NCBI GenBank assembly: GCA_021806135.1
Contig: JAJZYB010000013.1
Coordinates: 1-32,097, forward strand
DNA: 32,097 nt
Direction of reading: 5' to 3'
Origin: Thermoplasmata archaeon
GTDB taxonomy: Archaea > Thermoplasmatota > Thermoplasmata > Lutacidiplasmatales > UBA184
Shown here in pieces: positions 6,871 to 21,957 of this stretch. The position numbers and the translations under genes were made by a program. How positions within the stretch are numbered: the stretch's first letter is position 1; each line of letters opens with the position of its first letter. Under the pieces are notes generated by a model, which made no database searches, had not been told where the DNA came from, and worked only from the letters and a program-made list of their open reading frames with translations.

Positions 6871-6880
6871 ATTAAAAAGC
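6871..6880 (-). promoter_or_regulatory. TATA-like box for the S6e-aIF2 gamma-Trm112 operon
   Basis: GCTTTTTAAT on the minus strand, the most AT-rich spot between S6e and the divergent A24 peptidase gene. At about 43 nt from ATG 6832 it leaves a short leader. Confidence 0.45.
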
Positions 6881-17043: not shown

Positions 17044-17051
17044 TTAAGTAT
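17044..17051 (-). promoter_or_regulatory. TATA-like box for the FKBP gene
   Basis: ATACTTAA on the minus strand, overlapping the stop codon of the glycosyltransferase and centred about 28 nt upstream of ATG 17019. It suggests the FKBP gene has its own leaderless promoter despite lying directly behind the glycosyltransferase. Confidence 0.5.
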
Positions 17052-18117
17052 TGCTGGGGGGTGACCGAGGGAGGTGGCGTCGGCCGCTCCACCCGTACCG
17101 GAGGAATCCCCGGAACGCCCCGTAGGTGGTCGCCCATCGACGGAGGATCTCAAGGGGCCGGAGACGGAAGCCGGGATAATGCGCCTCCTCCGCCCGGCCT
17201 TGGATCGCCAGGGCGGACACGAGCATAAGGAAGCTCAGCCCGGAGGCGAGGAGGACCCCCTCCCCCCAGATGGGCCGGGCCGGAAGGGACACCCAAAGCA
17301 ACGCTCCCACCACGGCCAGGAAGGGAGGGAGCAGGTACGGGAGAAGCCGGCCACCGGTCGCCTCGTAGGTGCTCCCGTTGCGCCTCCAGACCACGTACCC
17401 GCCCTTCGCGTAGGTCGCCTGCTTGCGGAGCAGGCTCCAGAGCGTCAGGCCAGTGAAATCGTGTCCCACGGCCGCCCCGGGCACATAGCAGCCTCGCCAG
17501 CCGGCTCGCAGGGCCCGGAGCGCGAAGTCCTGATCCTCACTGGAGGCTCGGGGGTCCAGCGTGGTGTCCAGCCTTCCCACCTCCTCGAAGACCTTCCGAC
17601 GCCAGGCCGAATTTCCCATGGGGAGGGCGTGCGGGTGGTGTCGCGCCACGGTGTCGTAGAAGCGACGGAGGTAGCCGTCGTAATAGCTCGCACCGAACGT
17701 GGCCACCGTGCCCGGCATTCCGGGGGTGGGCCCTCCGGTGAAGCCCACGGTGGGATCCGTGAAGGGCGCGACGAGCTCCATGAGCCATCCCGCCGGGGCC
17801 TCTTCATCCGCGTCCAGAAACGCCACGACCTCCCCCCGGGCCTCCCGAAGGGCCCCGTTACGGCTCTCGGCAATGGTGCCAGGGACCCGCAGCGGACGCA
17901 CCCGGGGGTCCCGCTGCGCCCACTCCTGGGCCGATTCGAATGTCCCGTCCGTGGAACCCCCGTCCGCCACCAGGACCTCCAGGGGAGGACAGGTCTGCCC
18001 CTCCAGGCTTCGGAGCGTACGGGTCACCCGGCGATCGTTGAGGACCGTCACCACCACGGTCACCGTGGGTCCCGCCGGGGAACGCGGGACCGGGGCCCGG
18101 CCCTCTCCCTCAGCCAT
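17044..18117 (-). CDS. Family 2 glycosyltransferase, membrane-bound
   Basis: A 357-residue GT-A fold glycosyltransferase. VVVTVLND (21-28) begins the nucleotide-sugar domain, VADGGSTDGT (50-59) is the usual sugar-nucleotide loop, and DAD at 102-104 in FLDADEE is the metal-binding DxD. SEDQDFALRAL (about 190-200) is the acceptor-side ED motif. Two membrane helices near 255-300 and an amphipathic C-terminus tie it to the inner face of the membrane. ATG 18117 lies inside the end of the epimerase gene (8-base overlap), so the two are co-expressed, and an epimerised UDP-sugar donor is a reasonable inference. Products could be glycolipid or surface glycan. Confidence 0.9.
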   Translation of the reverse strand: MAEGEGRAPVPRSPAGPTVTVVVTVLNDRRVTRTLRSLEGQTCPPLEVLVADGGSTDGTFESAQEWAQRDPRVRPLRVPGTIAESRNGALREARGEVVAFLDADEEAPAGWLMELVAPFTDPTVGFTGGPTPGMPGTVATFGASYYDGYLRRFYDTVARHHPHALPMGNSAWRRKVFEEVGRLDTTLDPRASSEDQDFALRALRAGWRGCYVPGAAVGHDFTGLTLWSLLRKQATYAKGGYVVWRRNGSTYEATGGRLLPYLLPPFLAVVGALLWVSLPARPIWGEGVLLASGLSFLMLVSALAIQGRAEEAHYPGFRLRPLEILRRWATTYGAFRGFLRYGWSGRRHLPRSPPSNT

Positions 18118-19093
18118 GGCGGACCGGCGACGATCTCGGAACCGGGTCCCGGAGGGCCCGGATGGTCTCGTCCACCACCTCGGCGGACCGGTATCGGGGG
18201 GTGAAGCCCAACCGCCGCAGCCGGTCGATGGACAGATGCTGGCGAGGGACGTCGCCCGCCCACCCCCGGGGCCCTCCGGTGTACTCGATCCGTGCCCCGG
18301 TACCGGTCGCGGACACCACCCGTTGGGCGATCTCGGCCACCGAGATGGTGTCCTCGGGAGCCAGGTTGAACACGTTGACGGGTTCCTTCCCGTGCTCCGT
18401 GGCGTAGGTCATCGCCTTCACACAGTCCTCCACGTGGAGGTATCCCTTCCGTTGGGATCCATCGCCCAGCACTTCCAGGCGATGGGGGTCGCGACGGAGC
18501 TTCTCCAGGAAGTCATAGATGACGCCGTGGGTCGCCCCAGGTCCACAGACGTTGGCGAAGCGGAAGACCCAGGCCTGGAAACCGAACGTATGGACGAATG
18601 CGCTCACCAGCCCCTCCGACGCGAGCTTGCTCGCCCCATAGAGGCTCTCCGGGAGCAGAGGCCCGTAGTCCTCCGGGGTCGGGAAGACCGTGGGAAAGCC
18701 ATAGACCACGGAGCTCGACGAGAACGCGATGCGCTTCACCGACGCTCTCCGCATGGCCTCGAGCACCCGCTGGGTGGCGAGCGTCCCCTGTTCCAGGTCC
18801 AGGTGGGTGATCTCCTTCCCACGTCGGACGTCCGGGTTCGCCGAAAGATGCCAGACGAACTCTGTCTCCGTCACTCCCCGGAGAAGCGTGGGGGGGTCCA
18901 GGACATCCCCCTCGAGGATCTCCACTCTCGGGTCGCCGGAGAGGTCGTGGAGGTTTCCCCGGGTCCCGGAGGAGAAATTGTCTAGGACGCGGACCCTCCA
19001 GCCCCGATCCAGGAGCTCCCGCACCAGGAAGTGACCGATCCCTCCGGCGCCGCCGGTCACCAGGGCCCGCGGCCCGTCTCCCGCCTTCCGCAC
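18110..19093 (-). CDS. NAD-dependent sugar-nucleotide epimerase/dehydratase (GalE-like)
   Basis: A 327-residue extended short-chain dehydrogenase. The NAD-binding GGAGGIG motif is at 14-20 with D38 in VLDNFSSG binding the adenosine ribose, as in UDP-glucose/GlcNAc 4-epimerases. The catalytic Ser region FSSSSVVYG (123-131) and Y151-x3-K155 in LYGASK are present. The start is GTG 19093. It forms an overlapping pair with the glycosyltransferase, supplying its activated sugar, and shares a palindromic TATA-like promoter with the divergent small-protein operon. Exact substrate (glucose, GlcNAc or uronate) cannot be read from sequence. Confidence 0.9.
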   Translation of the reverse strand: MRKAGDGPRALVTGGAGGIGHFLVRELLDRGWRVRVLDNFSSGTRGNLHDLSGDPRVEILEGDVLDPPTLLRGVTETEFVWHLSANPDVRRGKEITHLDLEQGTLATQRVLEAMRRASVKRIAFSSSSVVYGFPTVFPTPEDYGPLLPESLYGASKLASEGLVSAFVHTFGFQAWVFRFANVCGPGATHGVIYDFLEKLRRDPHRLEVLGDGSQRKGYLHVEDCVKAMTYATEHGKEPVNVFNLAPEDTISVAEIAQRVVSATGTGARIEYTGGPRGWAGDVPRQHLSIDRLRRLGFTPRYRSAEVVDETIRALRDPVPRSSPVRHG

Positions 19094-19125
19094 GGTGGAA
19101 CCTCGTCCGCCGCCTTCCTCGAGCA

Positions 19126-19137
19126 GGATATATATCC
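19126..19137. promoter_or_regulatory. Perfectly palindromic TATA-like box between divergent genes
   Basis: GGATATATATCC is identical on both strands. It lies 38 nt from GTG 19093 (epimerase, minus) and 45 nt from ATG 19177 (small protein, plus), so one symmetric element could direct transcription both ways. Confidence 0.6.
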
Positions 19138-19176
19138 AACGGGTCCCCTCGTGGGACCGGAAGGGGAACGCGATCC

Positions 19177-19401
19177 ATGCGAACCTACGTGCGGGTGGTC
19201 TTCAGTTCCGAGGGAGCCGGGCCTCAGGATGTGGTCAAGGTGATGCGGGAATTGGGGTTCGAAGAATCCCTCGGAATGCATGACTTCGTCTACAAGTGGA
19301 AGAACCGCGCGAACCTGGACGAGGTGCTCAACATGGTGACGGAGATGCACCGCCGGATGAAGGGCCTCCAGGTGAACTACGAGGTCACCACCATCACGTG
19401 A
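19177..19401 (+). CDS. Small protein of unknown function (74 residues)
   Basis: Not recognised as a known family. The order MRTYVRVVFSS (strand), AGPQDVVKVMRELGFEE (helix), HDFVYKWKN (strand), NLDEVLNMVTEMHRRMKG (helix), NYEVTTIT (strand) suggests a compact alpha/beta fold of the ferredoxin-like or ACT kind. It is soluble and has no cysteine or metal motif. It has its own promoter and is coupled (GTGA overlap) to a winged-helix protein gene, then a GNAT acetyltransferase. A ligand- or partner-binding role with the winged-helix protein is only a guess. Confidence 0.75.
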   Translation: MRTYVRVVFSSEGAGPQDVVKVMRELGFEESLGMHDFVYKWKNRANLDEVLNMVTEMHRRMKGLQVNYEVTTIT

Positions 19402-19748
19402 ACGGCGCCCGCCCTTCGGAAGGTCCGGCCCCCCCGCTCCCGGCGGGGGAGGGGGGTCCTCCGGAGAAACGGATCCTCGTCCATCTGTGGGAGAACCGGA
19501 CCCCACGGGGCCGGTTTGAGGCGAGGAAGGCCCTCACTGAGGCCGGCATCATGCGGAGCCTTGGGCTGGGCCGCGTGGAGCTCAGGCGCCTCCTCGCCCG
19601 GCTCGAAGGGCAGGGGATGCTCAGCCACCGGACCCAGTACGTGGTGGGCTTCACCGAGATGCGGACGGTCTATCACCTGACCCGGAGAGGGGAACGGGAG
19701 GCCCGGGCACTCTGCGCCCCCCCACCGCCCGGGAGGTCCTCCCCATGA
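19398..19748 (+). CDS. Winged-helix protein
   Basis: A 116-residue protein starting at GTG 19398, which overlaps the stop of the small protein by four bases (GTGA). After a Pro/Gly-rich lead, residues about 26-95 form a winged helix: KRILVHLWEN, then GIMRSLGLGRVELRRLLARLEGQGML as helix-turn-helix plus recognition helix, and MRTVYHLTRRGEREA as wing and closing helix. This is the archaeal MarR/PadR-like layout and would bind DNA. It may control its own operon or the divergent sugar genes across the palindromic promoter. Its stop overlaps the GNAT start by four bases. Confidence 0.8.
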   Translation: MNGARPSEGPAPPLPAGEGGPPEKRILVHLWENRTPRGRFEARKALTEAGIMRSLGLGRVELRRLLARLEGQGMLSHRTQYVVGFTEMRTVYHLTRRGEREARALCAPPPPGRSSP

Positions 19749-20344
19749 ACTCTGGGAGCGCCCGCCCAGGCCCCGGTCGCCGCGGTCATCTCAGTGGCCC
19801 CCGGGTGAGGCTCCGGCCCCCCGCGCCGGAGGACCTCCCCCTGCTCTTCCGGTGGATGAACGACCCGGAGGCGGTCGCTCCCTGGGACCGCTTCGAAGTG
19901 GACAGCTACGAGGGACTCGCCCAGTCCGTTCGGGAAGCGCCCACCGATCCCCGGTCGCTCGCCCCCCGCCTCGTGGTGGTCCGACGGGAGGACGACAAAC
20001 CCCTCGGCGTGGTGGGATACTACCTGGCCCACAACGCCCTCGATACGGTGGACCTTTGGTACGCCATCTGCCTTCCCGAGGAGCGGGGGAAGGGCTACGG
20101 AGCGGAGGCGGTCAGCCTCCTCGCCGACTTCGTTTTCTCCCAGCAGAAGGTCTCCCGGGTCGGCGCGGTGGCCGACGTGGAGAACCCGCCTTCCTACCAC
20201 CTCTTAGAGAGGCTCGGCTTCTCCCTCGAGGGACGGGTCCGCCAGGCCCTCTTCCACCATGGCCAGTGGCACGACGTGGTGGTCTATGGGCTCACCCGGG
20301 CGGAGTGGGAACGGAAGGGTCCCTCCCCGGCGGGCCAAGCTTGA
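19745..20344 (+). CDS. GNAT-family N-acetyltransferase (RimJ/RimL-like)
   Basis: A 199-residue acetyltransferase. After a variable lead, VRLRPPAPEDLPLLFRWMNDPE (strand and helix of the RimL type), LGVVGYY and the acetyl-CoA pyrophosphate loop PEERGKGYGAEA (about 115-126) are seen. The C-terminal YHLLERLGFSLEGRVRQALFHHGQWHDVVVYG is characteristic of RimJ/RimL-like enzymes that acetylate protein N-termini or small amines. The ATG overlaps the stop of the winged-helix gene (ATGA). The 3' end runs 53 bases into the convergent AlaX gene. The substrate is unknown. Confidence 0.88.
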   Translation: MNSGSARPGPGRRGHLSGPRVRLRPPAPEDLPLLFRWMNDPEAVAPWDRFEVDSYEGLAQSVREAPTDPRSLAPRLVVVRREDDKPLGVVGYYLAHNALDTVDLWYAICLPEERGKGYGAEAVSLLADFVFSQQKVSRVGAVADVENPPSYHLLERLGFSLEGRVRQALFHHGQWHDVVVYGLTRAEWERKGPSPAGQA

Positions 20345-21104
20345 ACCGGAGCCGTTGCCCTCCCCCCGGGAGAGGGAGGGCAGGCTCCTCCTCCACCCGG
20401 CCCACCTCCGACGTGTCCCGGACGTGGGTCCCCCCACAGGGGGTCCGGTCGATGCCTTGGATCACCACCAGGCGGAGCTCGGAGAGCCCCTGCGGGAGAC
20501 GGGCGGCGCTGGATCGCCCAGGCTCCCGGGCGAAATCCTCCGGTGTGACGAACGCCAGCGAGACGGGAACCGGACGGGTGAAGAACTCCCGGTTGGCCTC
20601 GTCCAACGTTTCCTTCAGGCTCGGCCCTGTGGGAAGAGGTCGGACCAGGTCGAGCGACCCGCCCGTGCCCCCCAACCGGGCCCGTTCGGTCGGGATCCCA
20701 TGCCGGCGGAAGACGATCGCGGAGAGCAGGTGCTGCGCCGTGTGCGCCCGCATGTGCCGGTAGCGTCGGGTCCAATCGATCCGCCCTTCCACCGACATCC
20801 CTCGAGCGAGCTTTCCCTGCAGGCCGGGGGACACCCGGTGCACGATGGCGCCGGAGCGATGCTCCACCTCCGTGACCCGGATGCGTTCCCCTTCGGGGGT
20901 CACGAGCTCGCCCTGGTCGCAGGGCTGGCCACCTCCGGTGGGGTAGAACAGGGTGGTCGAGAGGAGGACCCCTCCAGGTGGAAGGGCAACGACCTCGGCG
21001 TGAAAGGCGGTCTCGTATCCCACGTCCAGGCTCTTGAGGTAGCCAGGGACTTCCCGGTCGGTCAAGGTCGTCCTTCCTGGTCCCGAGCCTCCGCGGCTCA
21101 TCAT
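20292..21104 (-). CDS. AlaX-type alanyl-tRNA editing hydrolase
   Basis: A 270-residue stand-alone editing enzyme that removes serine or glycine wrongly attached to tRNA-Ala. The N-terminal region (about 28-115) is an AlaRS-like beta barrel with TLFYPTGGGQPCDQG. The zinc site is formed by H121 and H125 in RAHTAQHLL and by C223 and H227 in PCGGTHV. The length fits the AlaX-M/type II group. ATG 21104 (tandem ATG ATG) is preferred; the frame is open upstream to 21485 but that part overlaps PCNA on the other strand. It is divergent from PCNA and convergent with the GNAT gene. Confidence 0.9.
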   Translation of the reverse strand: MMSRGGSGPGRTTLTDREVPGYLKSLDVGYETAFHAEVVALPPGGVLLSTTLFYPTGGGQPCDQGELVTPEGERIRVTEVEHRSGAIVHRVSPGLQGKLARGMSVEGRIDWTRRYRHMRAHTAQHLLSAIVFRRHGIPTERARLGGTGGSLDLVRPLPTGPSLKETLDEANREFFTRPVPVSLAFVTPEDFAREPGRSSAARLPQGLSELRLVVIQGIDRTPCGGTHVRDTSEVGRVEEEPALPLPGGGQRLRFKLGPPGRDPSVPTPPG

Positions 21105-21178
21105 CCCTCCGTTCCGAGGGTCGGGGGCCCGGCTTTCCTTTCCCGGGCCGTTCGTGGACCCCGTGGGTCTCACAAGGG

Positions 21179-21185
21179 TTTTAAA
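21179..21185 (+). promoter_or_regulatory. TATA-like box for the PCNA gene
   Basis: TTTTAAA, the most AT-rich run between AlaX and PCNA, about 38 nt upstream of ATG 21220. Confidence 0.5.
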
Positions 21186-21219
21186 GGGAGCGGGGGTGGG
21201 CCGACGCCAAGGTTCCCCC

Positions 21220-21957
21220 ATGTTCCGGGCACGCGTGCGCATGGAGGTCCTCCGTGAACTGGTGGGGGTGGTCTCCACCCTCGTGCCCGAGGTGAAGATC
21301 GTGATCAGCCCGGAGGGCCTCGAGGCCAAGGCGGTGGACCCCTCCCACGTGGCCATGCTGGTGGTCCGTCTGAAGAAGGAGGCCTTCGAGGAGTTCAATG
21401 GCGAGCCCACGGAGATCGGCCTCGACTTGGAGAAGGTCCGGGAGGTCCTCCAGCTCGCGCGCCCGGGGGAGGTACTCGAGATCAACTACGATGCCCCGAA
21501 GTCCCGATTGGTGGTCTCCGTGGGCAAGCTCAGCCGGTCCATGAGCGTGGTCGACCCTCAAGGGATGTCCGATCCCAAGGTCCCCTCCGTGAACCCCACC
21601 GCGAAGGTCTCGCTCCGGATCGAGGACCTGCGCCAGGGGATCCGGGGTTCGGAGTCCATCAGCGACCATGTGACGCTGAGCCTGGACCCCGAGGGCTTCG
21701 CCCTCCACTCGGAGGGGGAGAACGACCGGGTGGACCTGCGGCTCCCGAAGGATTCCCTCCTCAACTTGGAGACCTCGGAGCCGACCCGGAGCATGTACCC
21801 GCTGGACTTCTTCTCCAACATGGTGAAGTCCATCGTCACCGCCGAGACGGTGAACCTCGCCCTGGGGAACCAGTATCCGCTCAAGCTGGACTTCACCCTG
21901 GCCTCCGGGAACGGGGACGGAGAGTTCCTCCTCGCCCCCCGGGTGGAAGAGGACTGA
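21220..21957 (+). CDS. pcn: DNA polymerase sliding clamp (PCNA)
   Basis: A 245-residue clamp that forms a ring on DNA and tethers polymerase, ligase and nucleases. The two-domain plan is clear: domain 1 begins RMEVLRELVGVVSTLVPEVKIVI with GLEAKAVDPSHVAMLVVRL, the interdomain linker is around residues 105-125, and domain 2 ends in NQYPLKLDFTLASGNGDGEFLLAPRVEED, where the PLKLDF and LLAPR strands are family hallmarks. The length is normal. It is a single-gene unit with its own promoter; the thiolase gene downstream also has one. Confidence 0.96.
   Translation: MFRARVRMEVLRELVGVVSTLVPEVKIVISPEGLEAKAVDPSHVAMLVVRLKKEAFEEFNGEPTEIGLDLEKVREVLQLARPGEVLEINYDAPKSRLVVSVGKLSRSMSVVDPQGMSDPKVPSVNPTAKVSLRIEDLRQGIRGSESISDHVTLSLDPEGFALHSEGENDRVDLRLPKDSLLNLETSEPTRSMYPLDFFSNMVKSIVTAETVNLALGNQYPLKLDFTLASGNGDGEFLLAPRVEED

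Follow-up and report, generated by a model that had tools for sequence, protein, structure and literature searches.

A conserved S74-WH-GNAT operon of Thermoplasmata archaea, probably sharing a symmetric TATA box with a divergent epimerase gene, and the likely RNA-maturation link of its small-protein family

Three adjacent genes, S74, WH and GNAT, form a real, conserved operon carried by archaea of soil and acid habitats. The operon is probably autoregulated behind a shared divergent promoter, and the family to which its first product belongs is likely linked to RNA maturation. Taken together, these features would describe a self-regulated operon built around a small RNA-maturation-linked protein, with control by WH near the TATA box and an epimerase gene reading away from the same box, a tentative reading to which we give slightly less than an even chance. 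Gene order, family-wide conservation, the position of the TATA box, the predicted folds and the pattern of dispensability are the parts demonstrated at the level of sequence.

The window, meaning the whole 32,097-nucleotide stretch of DNA that was analysed, derives from a genome of 1.85 Mb in 65 contigs, the closest named records being Thermoplasmata MAGs; Candidatus Lutacidiplasma silvani is among the relatives, and the host itself is a Thermoplasmata archaeon near the Lutacidiplasmatales. On the plus strand, S74 (19177..19401; ATG at 19177, TGA at 19401) encodes a 74-aa ferredoxin-like (beta-alpha-beta-beta-alpha-beta) protein of an unnamed family, WH (19398..19748, with a GTG start) a 116-aa winged-helix DNA-binding protein of MarR/PadR-like fold, and GNAT (19745..20344) a 199-aa RimJ/SpeG-like N-acetyltransferase (PF13302). 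S74 and WH overlap by 4 bp (GTGA, 19398-19401), as do WH and GNAT (ATGA, 19745-19748). On the minus strand, an NAD-dependent sugar epimerase/dehydratase gene (18110..19093) is the divergent partner at the TATA box, and a family 2 glycosyltransferase gene (GT2; 17044..18117) overlaps its end and forms one unit with it. Between the two units lies GGATATATATCC (19126..19137), a palindromic archaeal TATA box predicted to be common to both, with the inverted repeat GGTCCC-CTCGT-GGGACC (19142..19158), a possible operator, just 3' of it. The 12-bp palindrome and the three-gene layout with its 4-bp overlaps had been described in an initial annotation, and their coordinates and anatomy agree with the window sequence. 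An alanyl-tRNA-editing (AlaX-like) reading frame is also found on the minus strand between GNAT and PCNA (20292-21485), and it occupies the same place in close relatives.

The gene order is kept beyond chance, as judged from relatives: S74-WH-GNAT is intact in 75 of the 76 named loci and, in a smaller set of relatives, in 27 of 29, which bears out the tight coupling of the three genes proposed at the outset. The exceptions (L106 among the 76; L030 and L035 among the 29) carry an S74 orthologue without WH or GNAT. Separation of the genes in close relatives, which was to count against that proposal, is seen in one further genus of the family, among part of its members, and is absent from the closest relatives. 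The epimerase gene is divergent in 70 of the 76 loci, with a GT2 gene nearby in 62. Mean column identity is highest for S74 (78%), followed by GNAT (55%) and WH (38%), most WH proteins being only 30-40% identical to that of the window. The 4-bp overlaps are a feature shared by the window with its closest kin; short gaps of roughly 5-30 bp replace them in most relatives. As a conserved coupling device, the overlaps were rejected.

Within the operon, S74 is tied to WH, and GNAT can part from both: in the best-sampled genus of the family, which is not that of the window, S74 is never found without WH and GNAT is in places kept without either. S74 orthologues were defined there by E below 1e-30. 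Among its 78 genomes, WH is present in 63, GNAT in 74 and an S74 orthologue in 59, all 59 of which also have WH. WH occurs without S74 in four genomes; the 15 that lack WH all lack an S74 orthologue too, and 11 of these retain GNAT. Where upstream DNA could be read at loci devoid of S74 and WH, GNAT lies directly opposite the epimerase gene (10 of 10 loci), and the synteny of FKBP, GT2, epimerase, GNAT and PCNA genes persists in the family even without S74 and WH. The tree is compatible with one to three joint losses of S74 and WH, and with S74 having been lost by itself about twice. One genome has an additional, more distant WH copy away from the operon (L195; G061 C5:19897-20196).

Structure prediction of S74 alone gave a beta-alpha-beta-beta-alpha-beta model (AF2, pLDDT 89), which upholds the alpha/beta fold first suggested for the small protein. 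Its weak structural matches are spread over many ferredoxin-like proteins, including Cas2, DUF77, designed proteins, ACT, PII and PHS023, so the fold alone says little. S74 shares the ferredoxin-like fold of Cas2, with TM-scores of 0.65-0.77 (by query length) and E-values of about 1e-3 to 4e-3; by sequence, it has no Pfam Cas2 match at E up to 1. Searches with S74 found no family among Pfam and NCBIfam profiles and only chance matches among solved structures, and a Pfam match to SPT16 fell below the cut-off and was set aside. The family does have a signature of its own, T-Y...[ST]-[ED]-G...G-[FL]...G..D-[FM]...W...G...T.

A profile of the S74 family (A4), searched against phylum genomes of at least 80% completeness, detected members in 58 of 118 genomes, in many of them as a single copy, and none in the 11 genomes of f8, one family of the class. 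The genome of the window has five members. The four further paralogues (C43:11606-11821, C56:7566-7784, C63:4828-5037 and C63:5790-5990 in G000; L005, L006, L007) include one located 3' of a gene for a PUA-containing tRNA-guanine transglycosylase and 5' of a flippase-like gene, and another between a coaD-like gene and sugar-nucleotide genes.

The recurring neighbours of the family are RNA-maturation genes. Among 20 S74-family loci picked for diversity, with both loci and neighbours chosen by the author, the RNase P subunit Rpr2/Rpp21 is encoded close downstream in 7 and a SpoU/TrmJ-type RNA methylase in 5. Trm1 adjoins the family gene in one locus and is more distant in a second, and tRNA-guanine transglycosylase (TGT) is likewise more distant in one. 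FtsJ adjoins the S74-family gene in L157. In the two genomes examined that have an S74 orthologue and neither WH nor GNAT with it, both from another family of the order, the orthologue stands just 5' of pus10, with a 4-bp overlap on the same strand in L151 and a 3-bp gap in L152. For a second S74 paralogue, a tRNA-guanine transglycosylase gene is nearby in 18 of 30 loci, upstream and on the same strand where checked. Six different RNA-maturation genes are represented, and they are the best functional lead for the family. These neighbours are mostly convergent rather than co-transcribed, the arrangements cluster by lineage, and other S74 paralogues have genes of no such kind around them (radical SAM, ThiD, purE). 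It is conceivable that unnamed ferredoxin-fold proteins of about 74 aa act in tRNA/rRNA maturation throughout the phylum, and that one branch has come under a dedicated, autoregulating WH behind a bidirectional promoter, a broader proposal that we regard as rather doubtful in its entirety. Two other neighbourhoods were noted. In the region L151:3351-4798, the S74 orthologue that overlaps pus10 is divergent from the ribosomal protein genes S13, S4 and S11. An uncharacterised protein of ~105 aa (L149:3818-4126, beginning VQRYPVR; likewise at the corresponding position in L146 and L148) is encoded 3' of a third S74 paralogue in several genomes, next to a site-2-protease-like membrane peptidase gene.

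The other two products can be placed by fold. The AF2 model of WH (pLDDT 83.5, core above 90) is a winged helix, and Foldseek matched it to ZitR, MepR and PadR with a probability of 1.00 and E above 0.001; against Pfam it scored 21 bits for PadR, under the cut-off of 27, and had no match to MarR. GNAT falls within PF13302 (83.4 bits, cut-off 25.4) and has a conserved R-G-K-G-Y-G acetyl-CoA motif, with R114, G117 and G119 invariant. Its closest solved structures are the RimJ-like 3igr and SpeG, the best match being a ribosomal-protein-S5-alanine N-acetyltransferase (E 1.9e-15), and it lies below every NCBIfam equivalog cut-off (36.9 against 190 bits for the RimJ equivalog).

Upstream, GGATATATATCC exceeds chance as a TATA-like element and not as a palindrome. 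The window contains 16 perfect 12-bp palindromes, so the symmetry as such is not unusual; in this GC-rich DNA, the element is the only TATATA and one of three all-A/T 8-mers, the others (positions 6871 and 26731) being possible further TATA boxes. A search for sigma-70 promoters and terminators found none. In archaea, the distance between TATA box and transcription start is about 26 nt. Over 69 loci the box keeps its place, with its centre a median of 29.5 nt from the epimerase start codon (24-34 nt in 56 loci) and 54 nt from the S74 start; the corresponding distances in the window are about 38 and 45 nt. By the 26-nt rule, this spacing agrees with a single box from which the epimerase transcripts would be nearly leaderless and that of S74 would have a short leader; the box stands at start-site distance from both genes as their start sites are predicted. 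The palindromic TATA-like box singled out by the initial annotation is confirmed and placed to serve both sides, and on this sequence evidence one symmetric box probably serves the epimerase unit and the S74 operon in both directions.

A second element, CGCCTAAA, occurs 3' of the TATA box in one genus, where, together with its nearest kin, the promoter consensus is GGGAAGCATATATAA-N9-CGCCTAAAC. Its distance to the TATA box is near-constant, and it would occupy approximately positions -13 to -5 relative to the S74 start site as predicted. The combination TATATAA-N8-10-CGCCTAA was found as a single site in each of 6 of 41 genomes, with no further sites in any, and all six are just 5' of S74/WH matches. 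Scored out of 8, the second element reaches 4 at most in all 10 WH-less loci and 7-8 in three of the four loci with WH and without S74; among 78 loci with both genes, it scores at least 6 in 53 and 5 or less in 25. Since CGCCTAAA mostly survives the loss of S74 and is absent without WH, the pattern points to WH as its reader and suggests that the element is an operator, on the strength of few independent losses. One to three events suffice to explain why S74 and WH are missing together, so the element and WH are not tied statistically; a tree-based test had one to three independent pairs, which put significance out of reach, and deletion of S74-WH could also have removed the element passively. 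CGCCTAAA is missing from the window's own genus and several other WH-bearing lineages.

In the window's genus, GGTCCC-N5-GGGACC is found instead, at the predicted plus-strand transcript start-site region. The repeat belongs to a 68-bp intergenic stretch that is 100% identical in another species (L037); the next 15 bp towards the epimerase gene are 60% identical and that gene itself 82%. Identity in fact extends over 135 bp (19108-19242), taking in the promoter together with S74 codons 1-21 without a synonymous change, in two species otherwise about 78-84% identical. Other sister pairs show nothing of the kind, and the tract is perhaps a product of recombination. Constraint on synonymous sites at the start of S74 (its first 22 codons) was considered and dismissed as specific to this pair, as it is absent over 31 sister pairs (synonymous differences of 30-36% in codons 2-22 and 22-35% in later blocks). 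A hairpin in the 5' leader was likewise discarded, RNA folding of the leader being no better than that of shuffles.

If these observations are assembled into a mechanism, S74-WH-GNAT would be transcribed divergently from the epimerase-glycosyltransferase unit, with one symmetric TATA box used both ways. WH would bind just 3' of the box, at CGCCTAAA in one genus and perhaps at GGTCCC-N5-GGGACC in that of the window. Bound there, it would overlap the start site, repressing or tuning the operon that encodes it and possibly the epimerase gene as well. S74, at a level set by WH, would most likely assist in RNA maturation or in translation, with RNA or a partner enzyme as what it binds, and GNAT would be a detachable downstream enzyme acetylating a protein N-terminus or a polyamine.

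This account competes with several others. The TATA box may serve the S74 operon only, with the epimerase promoter elsewhere and the palindrome a chance symmetry. Besides the commonness of such palindromes, a BRE-like GGGAAGC tract, seen in many relatives on the S74 side of the box and not evident on the other, would suit such an arrangement, and the window's epimerase start is looser than the family median; the tight TATA-epimerase distance over 69 loci, at the value expected for nearly leaderless transcripts, and the lack of a second TATATA in the window make it unlikely. Alternatively, the three genes could have unrelated jobs, with shared expression and local synteny as the sole reasons for their staying together. 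The neighbourhood that stays intact after loss of S74 and WH, the persistence of GNAT without them and the pairing of S74 with pus10 in another family of the order would all be accommodated by this explanation, which has appreciable weight and is nonetheless less probable than not, given that S74 never parts from WH in the best-sampled genus and that the order survives in 75 of 76 loci despite the wide divergence of most WH proteins.

The initial annotation suggested that the three work together, perhaps as a set of S74 sensor, WH regulator and GNAT modifier, which would amount to a single signalling set. Its conserved coupling stands, and small ferredoxin-like folds do include the ligand-binding ACT, RAM and PII domains, with ACT, PII and PHS023 among the weak matches of S74. 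Joint function is not supported: 11 genomes keep GNAT alone (at least 10 readable loci retain it without S74 and WH), four keep WH after loss of S74, and elsewhere in the phylum, S74 relatives occur with no orthologue of WH or GNAT. Nor did sensing by S74 find support, the recurring neighbours of its family being RNA-maturation genes, and we consider the signalling set improbable. Still further down is a toxin-antitoxin-like pair, in which S74 would be a Cas2/VapD-like ferredoxin-fold RNase and WH its autoregulating partner. A small gene beside a putatively autoregulating HTH protein, PDB fold matches (E 1e-3 to 1e-2) to Cas2 (4qr0, 6jhz) and VapD (9kan), and an acidic residue that every aligned family member has at position 12 would fit such a pair; designed ferredoxin folds match S74 about equally well, S74 is conserved in a single locus, with a mean column identity of 78%, rather than patchily, and its single-copy relatives stand alone, which leaves this idea very improbable indeed.

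The operon itself is of an ordinary kind, and its S74 family is without a Pfam or NCBIfam match. Should the favoured reading of a self-regulated operon be true, a family present in about half of the sampled phylum genomes would gain its first functional lead, in RNA maturation, and the conserved two-way promoter would offer a natural test of archaeal control of divergent transcription.

Known systems resemble the locus in part. In Pyrococcus furiosus, shared symmetric TATA boxes have start sites 49-50 bp apart, and one was tested in vitro (PMC6640164); bidirectional archaeal TATA promoters are also attributed to Warman et al. 2021 in the passage of PMC10268837 that cites that work. Like those promoters, the present one has a symmetric TATA box between head-to-head genes and a spacing that fits two start sites; unlike them, it lies between two coding genes in an arrangement conserved across a family, and its start sites are predicted. 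WH is similar to MarR/PadR-like regulators (ZitR, MepR and PadR folds) in its predicted winged helix, small size and conserved element at its own promoter, and differs in falling below the Pfam cut-offs. GNAT shares PF13302 and the R-G-K-G-Y-G motif with the RimJ/RimL/SpeG acetyltransferases and departs from them in its sub-threshold equivalog scores. Finally, S74 has the beta-alpha-beta-beta-alpha-beta topology of Cas2, DUF77/MTH1187, VapD and the ACT/RAM domains, and it stands apart from all of these as a protein with no sequence relation found and no Pfam or NCBIfam family of its own.
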